DNA from: Acidobacteriota bacterium
GTDB taxonomy: Bacteria; Acidobacteriota; Terriglobia; Terriglobales; Acidobacteriaceae
DNA: 64,000 bases
Reading direction: 5' to 3'
Assembly: GCA_031296115.1 (NCBI GenBank)
Contig: JARLGI010000057.1
Span: 1-64,000 of the forward strand
A program made the position numbers and the translations under genes. Positions 7,147 through 9,849 of this stretch are shown in pieces. The notes under the pieces were generated by a model that saw only the letters and a list, made by a program, of their open reading frames with translations, was not told where the DNA came from and did no database searches. How positions within the stretch are numbered: position 1 is the stretch's first letter; each line of letters starts with the position of its first letter.

Positions 7147-7902
7147 TTACTTGCCGTCCTTTCCCAGTTGGTCAACGAATTCCCGCACCAGCGATTGGTC
7201 GGTGGGTTCGTCCACGCGAATCTGGCGGGTCGCCAGGTCGACCGCCAACGAAGCAGCGTAGGATTTCAGCTCGCGGCGAGCGTTGCGCGCCACCGCAGCG
7301 ATTTCCGCCTCGGCACCCTGCACTACTTTGCGCTTGTCGTCTTCCGCGGCCTCGCGAATGCGCTGTTCTTCCGCAGCGGCTTCACTTTCTGCCGCGGTGC
7401 GAATGTCTGCGACTTCGCTGTCTAGTTTCGCCAGGCGCGCTTCAATCTCGCTCAAGCGGCGCGCCGCGTCGGCACTGGCGGCTTCCGCCTCGCGGATGCC
7501 CTTCTGGATGGCTGCTGTGCGTTCACGGAATGCCTGCGGCAGCCGCGACCTGAGCAGCAGATAAAAAATGACCGCAATACCAGCAAAATTTAAGGCCAGC
7601 GATATGGCAAACGATACATCCGGGCCGATGCCGAGTTTGCGGCCCCACGTCTCCGCCCTGGAAGCGGCCGTCTCGGTGGTTTTGGCCAGGATCTCTCCCA
7701 CACCGGCATTGGGACCTTCGCCCGCCGGTTCGGCCGCAGCGTCGCCATGCTCGGGTTTTGCCTGCGGAGCTTCTGCAGAGTCGCCATGCTCGGGCTTTGC
7801 TTGCGTGGCCTCTTGGGCGCGAACACTTCCCAAAAACAGACAGGAAAGAAAGACGACTAGGGCGAATGAGCTGGTAAGTCGGCGAAAGGAAATGTTCTTC
7901 AC
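7147..7902 (-). CDS. atpF: F-type ATP synthase b subunit with N-terminal signal-peptide-like extension
   Basis: Peripheral-stalk b subunit: a membrane helix (about residues 95-117, VSFAISLALNFAGIAVIFYL) followed by a long Ala/Glu/Arg-rich coiled coil. At 251 residues it is much longer than a standard b subunit (~160). The surplus is N-terminal: a signal-peptide-like start (FALVVFLSCLFLGSVRAQEA) and then an imperfect tandem repeat, QAKPEHGDSAEAP / QAKPEHGDAAAEP, at about residues 34-60. This would place a ~70-residue low-complexity segment outside the membrane if the signal is cleaved. The ATG overlaps the end of the upstream b' gene. The fold assignment is secure; the role of the extension is unknown. 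Confidence 0.88.
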   Translation of the reverse strand: MKNISFRRLTSSFALVVFLSCLFLGSVRAQEATQAKPEHGDSAEAPQAKPEHGDAAAEPAGEGPNAGVGEILAKTTETAASRAETWGRKLGIGPDVSFAISLALNFAGIAVIFYLLLRSRLPQAFRERTAAIQKGIREAEAASADAARRLSEIEARLAKLDSEVADIRTAAESEAAAEEQRIREAAEDDKRKVVQGAEAEIAAVARNARRELKSYAASLAVDLATRQIRVDEPTDQSLVREFVDQLGKDGK

Positions 7903-8372
7903 GATTGACCGCCGATCGCGGGAGCCGCGCCTGCCGGTCGCAGGATGGTGCGGATGATCTCGGAAGCCAGGTGCTCGACCTCGCTTTGCAGGCCGACTTT
8001 GGCGGCGGCCATATCCTGTTCGAGGGCGGTACGCGCTTCCTGGATCTGCTGCTGGGCGCGTGAACGGGCCTGTGCCACGGCCTCCGCGCGGGCCTGTTGC
8101 GCGACTTGGCGGCGTGCTTCCTGGGCCTTGAAGATGGTCAGCCGCGCTTCCCGCAAGCGCTGCTCGTAATCCTGAGTCTTGGCTTCCGCTGTGGCCACGG
8201 CGGCGCGCGACTTCTGAACGGCCCCCTCGGTACGCTCCCGGCGTTCACTGCTGATCCGCACCAGTGGTTTGCGGACGAGCGTGTTGTAGATGGCGTATAG
8301 CAGCAGCAACAGAATGACCGTCGGAATGGCTCCGAGCAGTAATTCGCCTACTTGTCTGAGAGTCGTATCCAT
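7899..8372 (-). CDS. F-type ATP synthase second b-type (b') subunit
   Basis: A second peripheral-stalk subunit of about 157 residues: one N-terminal membrane helix (GAIPTVILLLLLYAIYNTLV) and a long charged coiled coil ending in a short Ala/Gly-rich tail. Paired b and b' genes form a heterodimeric stalk in many photosynthetic and other bacteria. The ATG at 8370-8372 (MDTTLRQVGELL) is chosen because the frame upstream to a TTG at 8438 adds only unconserved residues. It is the first gene of the operon here; atpB (a) and atpE (c), which usually precede the b genes, are absent. The end overlaps the atpF start by 4 bases. Confidence 0.88.
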   Translation of the reverse strand: MDTTLRQVGELLLGAIPTVILLLLLYAIYNTLVRKPLVRISSERRERTEGAVQKSRAAVATAEAKTQDYEQRLREARLTIFKAQEARRQVAQQARAEAVAQARSRAQQQIQEARTALEQDMAAAKVGLQSEVEHLASEIIRTILRPAGAAPAIGGQS

Positions 8373-8438: not shown

Positions 8439-8467
8439 AGCTAACAGGGCTTAAGCCTGGGTGTCAA
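8439..8467 (-). promoter_or_regulatory. Possible sigma70-type promoter for the atp operon
   Basis: Reading the minus strand, TTGACA (8467-8462) is followed after 18 bases by TAGCTT (8443-8438 region), about 65 bases before the b' start codon. The -35 match is perfect and the -10 is weak, so this is tentative. Confidence 0.35.
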
Positions 8468-8763
8468 CGGATGGAAGACCAGTGCCATTCGTTCGTCCCT
8501 CTAACCTTTTTGCATGTGCAGCGAAGGCGAGCGTCCGTCCTGGCGAGGCTCCGAAGCTCTTGCAAAATGTTGTGTTTGTGCGTGTCGGAACGCCAGCCCG
8601 CCTGCTCGATTGCCGTGTGTAACGCAAAGTTACCAATTGACAGCTGCGAAGGCCTGGGGGCCAAACTCCAATCCGCAGCCACGTGTTAAGCCATGTCTTA
8701 GGTTTCGGCTCATTTCCATGATGAGTCCCGTGAAGAATGCTGCGTGATCGATGGGAGGCGAGC
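8468..8763. other. Non-coding gap between divergent atp operon and SPFH gene
   Basis: About 300 bases without a supportable gene. Short frames exist on both strands but lack ribosome binding sites and recognisable protein sequence. It must hold the promoters of the two divergent units; no convincing plus-strand -35/-10 pair was found. Confidence 0.5.
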
Positions 8764-8997
8764 GTGGATCTGATCTCATTATTTGGTACGCTGCTTTTAG
8801 TTTTTTTCGGCATGAGCATCCTGTTCGGTTCGATGTTCACCGTCAGCCAGACGGAGCGCGCCCTCATCGAGCGCAATTCCCGGTTCCTGCGGGTCACTGG
8901 CCGGGGTCTTCAGTTCAAGGTCCCTTTCATCGACGGGATACGACGGATCAATACTCAGATCCAGCAGTACGATGTAAAAGTCGAGACCAAGACCTAA
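8764..8997 (+). CDS. SPFH/band 7 protein, N-terminal part (gene interrupted by one extra base)
   Basis: The first 77 codons of an SPFH (stomatin/prohibitin/flotillin/HflK) protein. It begins with a GTG at 8764, 5 bases after a strong GGGAGG (8753-8758), encodes one N-terminal membrane helix (LISLFGTLLLVFFGMSILFG) and enters the SPFH domain (FTVSQTERALIERNSRFLRV, then QYDVKVETKT). A TAA at 8995-8997 ends it abruptly. In the family the sequence continues TKDNVFVT, and exactly that (KDNVFVT) is encoded in the +1 frame immediately after. Deleting the single T at 8995 restores one continuous gene to 9835. It is either a real frameshift mutation, an assembly error, or a programmed slip. Confidence 0.85.
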   Translation: MDLISLFGTLLLVFFGMSILFGSMFTVSQTERALIERNSRFLRVTGRGLQFKVPFIDGIRRINTQIQQYDVKVETKT

Positions 8998-9004
8998 GGA
9001 CAAC

Positions 9005-9835
9005 GTGTTCGTGACCATCTTTGTCTCCATCCAGTTGTACGTGCTGGAGGATACGACCGATCACATTCGTAATGCGTACTACAAGCTTTACAATCCGGAG
9101 GCGCAAATTCAGTCCTACGTCGCAAACGCCATCCTGGGACACGTTCCCAGCATGGATTTTGACGAGGTTTTCACAAGCCAGATCGGTATCGCCGACTTCA
9201 TCAAGGCCGCTCTCGACGGACCGATGGAGGAATTTGGACGCGGTGTGCAGAAAGTGCAGGTCACGAAGATCACGCCGCCCGACAACGTGCGTGAAGCCAT
9301 GGACAATATCAACGCCGCGCGCCGCGATCAGGAAGCCGCCAAGGCCAAGGGCGAAGCAGACAAAATCATCGTGGTAAAGGAAGCCGAGGCCCAGATGGAG
9401 CGCGATATCTTGTTAGGCAAAGGCACGGCCGGGCAGCGCGCCGCCATCGTCGAAGGTCTGGCCAAGTCGGTCGAGGATTTCAAAGACAAGCTGGCCGGCA
9501 TCGATCCTACCGAGATTTTGAAGTTTGTGGTCATCACCAACTACTTCGATACGCTCAAGGAAGTCGCCTCGAAGTCGCACACCAACACCCTCTTTATGAA
9601 TCACTCTCCAGGTTCGGTGGACGACGTTTACCAGCGGCTGACCTCGAGCTTGATCGCCGGGGGTGGGCTGCTGAAGAATGGAGACCAGCCGGGCGCGGAA
9701 GAGCAGCGGCCTGAGCCTGCCGCAGCCGCGGCGGGAGGAGCCGGACGTGGAGGACGAAGTGTGCAGAGCGTAGTCGGGCCCAAAGCGAGCGTGGGTGACC
9801 TATCTGACTTCACGCTTTCCGACAGGGATACCTAG
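9005..9835 (+). CDS. SPFH/band 7 protein, C-terminal part (continuation after frameshift)
   Basis: The remainder of the SPFH protein: the domain continues (IRNAYYKLYNPEAQIQSYV, VPSMDFDEVF), followed by the Ala/Glu/Lys-rich coiled coil (INAARRDQEAAKAKGEADKI) and a Gly/Ala/Pro-rich tail. Homologues are membrane-anchored scaffolds that form large oligomers. As written it can start at GTG 9005, because the bases spanning the upstream stop (TAAGGA, 8995-9000) double as a Shine-Dalgarno 4 bases away. Such a product would lack the membrane helix. It converges on the M48 protease gene with a 14-base gap. Confidence 0.88.
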   Translation: MFVTIFVSIQLYVLEDTTDHIRNAYYKLYNPEAQIQSYVANAILGHVPSMDFDEVFTSQIGIADFIKAALDGPMEEFGRGVQKVQVTKITPPDNVREAMDNINAARRDQEAAKAKGEADKIIVVKEAEAQMERDILLGKGTAGQRAAIVEGLAKSVEDFKDKLAGIDPTEILKFVVITNYFDTLKEVASKSHTNTLFMNHSPGSVDDVYQRLTSSLIAGGGLLKNGDQPGAEEQRPEPAAAAAGGAGRGGRSVQSVVGPKASVGDLSDFTLSDRDT

Positions 9836-9849
9836 CGCGACGGCCTGCC

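Follow-up and report, generated by a model that had tools for sequence, protein, structure and literature searches.

Results

Structure of the SPFH locus

The window, which is the whole stretch of 64,000 nucleotides that was analyzed, carries an SPFH (Band_7) gene that, by sequence reading, starts at GTG 8764, runs into TAA 8995–8997 and resumes one frame over to end at 9835. The 5′ frame comprises 77 codons and ends in VETKT immediately before the TAA, where the first-pass annotation had also placed the end of the N-terminal part. The 3′ frame, read from 8996, begins with KDNVFVTIFVS, encodes 279 aa and is closed by TAG 9833–9835. The features of the locus are as follows.

8467..9849 (approximate), no strand assigned: segment missing from the syntenic site of congener G001; accessory insert with the SPFH gene
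8753..8758, + strand: GGGAGG, 5 bases ahead of GTG 8764 and probably the native ribosome binding site of the gene (sequence reading)
8764..8997, + strand: 5′ part of the SPFH gene, with the GTG start, the N-terminal hydrophobic segment and the first third of Band_7; its TAA is made by the frameshift
8995..8995, + strand: extra base T8995 relative to the nearest orthologue (G004); single gap in 840 aligned bases
8996..9835, + strand: 3′ part of the SPFH gene, with the remaining Band_7, the helical region and a variable C-terminal tail, ending at TAG 9833–9835
8996..9007, + strand: AAGGACAACGTG, the Lys-Asp-Asn-Val codons of the family motif; proposed Shine-Dalgarno (SD) sequence and GTG restart

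Both parts exceeded the curated cut-off of 23.6 bits for Pfam Band_7 (PF01145), the 5′ part with 33.5 bits (E=5.5e-8, profile positions 2–51 of 176) and the 3′ part with 57.3 bits (E=2.7e-15, positions 55–175 of 176). The two profile ranges are complementary, and the break falls after approximately one third of the profile. The gene resembles members of the SPFH/Band_7 family (relatives of HflK, QmcA and stomatin) in its N-terminal hydrophobic segment, SPFH domain and helical region but differs from them in being interrupted by one base in the present assembly. An intact orthologue (P0002) matched PDB chains of QmcA (E=7.7e-12), HflK and stomatin. On the HflK equivalog model (NCBIfam TIGR01933), the intact orthologue scored 71.3 bits, far under the cut-off of 159.4, and the gene therefore belongs to a separate SPFH subgroup and not to HflK. 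In the acidobacterial subgroup (L017, L038, L003 and L039–L058), the motif ETKT-x-DNVFV is nearly invariant; it may also occur in plant hypersensitive induced reaction (HIR) proteins. No second intact SPFH copy of the same type was found in the genome to which the window belongs, which holds only distant SPFH relatives.

Orthologues and selection

Searches of relatives and of the phylum yielded 27 close orthologues and 5 distant homologues, all of which cover the break site. Every one of them (27/27 and 5/5) passes through the site in a single frame, so that the one continuous Band_7 frame missing from the window gene is present at the site in all of its close orthologues; none of these 27 is split there. 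The ETKT-x-DNVFV motif is also present in 27/27 close orthologues. Stops were flagged in three orthologues, at query residues 305–322, and these lie in the C-terminal tail, away from the break site. Because all orthologues are read through in one frame, neither a split nor a frameshift arrangement is conserved. The first-pass annotation had named intact orthologues at this site, together with a lack of peptide evidence for restart, as counting against its reading; the orthologues are indeed intact.

In the congeneric genome G004, the gene is intact and forms a single open frame. Aligned with the window gene, this copy showed 79% DNA identity over 840 bases, with a single gap opposite T8995; the earlier observation that dropping this base restores the family sequence is accurate. 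T8995 lies outside any homopolymer.

By codon position, the 5′ part differs from G004 at 20/7/41 sites and the 3′ part at 32/21/130. The corresponding dN/dS values were 0.106 and 0.039, which are rough estimates given that synonymous sites are near saturation. Against G004, both halves thus show strong purifying selection. No second lesion was observed in either half, and the 3′ part contains no further stop or frame change over its 279 codons; in the window genes, out-of-frame reading runs for a median of 32 codons before it reaches a stop. The low dN/dS in both halves and the lack of a second lesion led us to reject a long-standing pseudogene. Purifying selection together with the clean sequence indicates that the change is either very recent or not real, and the gene would have been under normal selection until very recently, or would still be if the base is an error.

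The SD-like string at the stop

AAGGA occupies positions 8996–9000, 4 bases before GTG 9005, exactly as the first-pass annotation had described. These bases are coding in the family: AAGGAC represents the Lys-Asp codons within the motif ETKTKDNVFV, and AAGGA is found at the site in 6 of 27 intact orthologues. The string AAGGACAACGTG, GTG included, is identical in two intact orthologues, L019 (G006) and L038 (G228), and is therefore not a product of the break. Since the SD-like string is fixed by conserved Lys-Asp codons, it offers no independent evidence for a restart.

The background rate of such restart signals was estimated from 1083 in-frame NTG codons in 40 intact genes of the window. A 5-letter SD sequence at 4–9 bases preceded 13 of the 1083 codons, and a 4-letter SD sequence at 4–10 bases preceded 75. 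A restart candidate is accordingly expected near a random break position in about 1% (5-letter SD) or about 6% (4-letter SD) of cases, and approximately 5% of insertions at a codon boundary give an immediate stop. A nearby restart candidate is uncommon yet unremarkable, and the overlap of the stop with a ribosome binding site is coincidental.

Genomic context

Congener G001 shares the gene order atpA-atpH-atpF-atpF-M48-YeiH-like-ABCF with the window, and its atpF-M48 gap is only about 140 bases. In G003, the end of the M48 gene adjoins atpF and the SPFH gene is absent. Homology to G001 stops at about 8466 and restarts at about 9850, and the SPFH gene therefore lies in an optional segment. This segment (window 8467–9849) is located between an ATP synthase b-subunit gene and an M48 (Ste24-like) peptidase gene; the site without the SPFH gene occurs in two congeners, at the listed loci L076 2711–2851 and L080 1767–2036. 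Upstream, two ATP synthase b-type subunit genes stand in tandem (window 7147–8372), the first of which contains a repeated QAKPEHGD stretch close to the N terminus. In the congener draft G006, the M48 peptidase gene is itself split by a frame change near codons 226–251 (L079 365–1475, G006:C501).

The SPFH copy of G004 has a different gene neighborhood. Of the 396 genomes searched in the phylum, 27 had a match at E <= 1e-20; within the genus, 3 of 9 genomes had a close match. The SPFH gene is thus an accessory insert, patchy and dispensable. Prokaryotic SPFH genes are known to be patchily distributed and to undergo lateral transfer (PMC2636767). Losing such a gene need not be very costly, and a real null mutation would fit this picture.

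Quality of the assembly

The genome is a Terriglobales draft in 125 contigs, 93.6% complete and 3.8% contaminated. Coding-potential gene calling divided the window into about 52 segments. When 20 adjacent same-strand or short genes were compared with Pfam, they matched distinct families, mostly over full profiles, and the main G001 genes with a syntenic match in the window, over approximately 6.6–24.9 kb, are each in a single frame there. No further broken gene or split family was found among the window genes checked, and T8995 is the only frame break seen. We therefore rejected a generally error-ridden stretch of assembly.

Discussion

Overall, the data point very strongly to an ordinary accessory SPFH membrane-protein gene with one extra base at 8995, which reflects either an assembly or consensus error or a very recent loss-of-function mutation. 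The first-pass annotation had left four options side by side, namely a sequencing error, a fresh mutation, a programmed frameshift and a functional two-protein arrangement. The first two are supported; the latter two find no support, given the intact orthologues, the coding role of the SD-like bases in them and the lack of a known +1 slippery signal.

A programmed +1 ribosomal frameshift at ACC-TAA-G, which would join both frames, is the most improbable of the explanations considered. Such shifts can occur at a zero-frame stop from which a single +1 step brings back the protein frame, and the window gene shares this trait with prfB, the gene for release factor 2. Re-pairing from ACC to CCT is poor, which counts against a shift here. 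The RNA folding of 8950–9080 is ordinary (z = -1.53, with 11 of 200 shuffles equally good). In prfB, an SD-like AGGGGG lies three bases upstream of the CTTT slippery sequence (PMC12421855). Unlike prfB, the window gene has neither an upstream AGGGGG nor a CTTT at the stop (GTCGAGACCAAGACCTAAG; motif from PMC12421855), and both are likewise missing from its GAGACCAAG-ACC-TAA-G. Furthermore, the stop and shift site is not conserved, as the 27 close and 5 distant homologues read through it. With no known +1 slippery or SD element upstream, no conservation and unexceptional folding, we rejected this possibility.

A deliberate two-protein output is very unlikely; it would comprise a short membrane fragment and a soluble second half whose translation restarts at GTG 9005, directed by the SD sequence that spans the stop. 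AAGGA 4 bases ahead of a GTG is a plausible bacterial initiation signal, and only about 1% of random positions have a 5-letter signal nearby. However, no orthologue is split, the identical string is present in intact orthologues, in which the SD-like bases are coding, and the break would cut Band_7 after only about a third of its profile. A recent one-base insertion by which, in this one lineage, an SPFH gene came to yield two products, one a short membrane fragment and the other a soluble half made by restart, is, if anything, still harder to credit.

Within the preferred reading of an error or a fresh mutation, the chance that the extra base is an assembly error, with the gene intact in the cell, is marginally better than even. 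Neither half shows decay and the gene is otherwise whole; the genome is a draft in 125 contigs with 3.8% contamination, and in the G006 draft a frame change likewise interrupts the M48 gene. Frameshifts made by assembly are common in public genomes and well documented in isolate genomes, metagenome-assembled genomes lying outside the study concerned (PMC11017572). The window gene resembles the frameshift pseudogenes, spurious or recent, that occur in bacterial assemblies in its single-base indel, its otherwise intact and conserved sequence and its intact orthologues; it differs in the position of the extra base, which lies outside the homopolymers where sequencing indels usually fall. This position and the lack of any other break among the window genes checked argue somewhat against a generally error-prone assembly and leave a real mutation open. 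It is accordingly a serious possibility, although its chance falls somewhat short of even, that the base is real and has only just inactivated a dispensable accessory gene. The gene is patchy in both the genus and the phylum and lies within an optional insert, and the surrounding sequence is otherwise clean. Notwithstanding, the extra base occurs in no independent genome of the same species, and the absence of further decay requires the mutation to be very young.

Should the base be real, ribosomes starting at GTG 8764 would halt after 77 codons, and we infer that the membrane-anchored, ring-forming protein expected of the family would not be made. The overlap of TAAGGA with the downstream GTG simply follows from the conserved codons AAG GAC AAC GTG. 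This overlap may at most permit some leaky internal initiation, and the resulting fragment would lack both the membrane anchor and the first third of the SPFH domain.

The finding is ordinary and of little importance in itself. It serves as an example that an SD-like string beside a frameshift speaks only weakly for a restart where Lys-Asp codons (AAG GAC) force the string, and that single-genome frameshifts of draft assemblies should first be compared with relatives.
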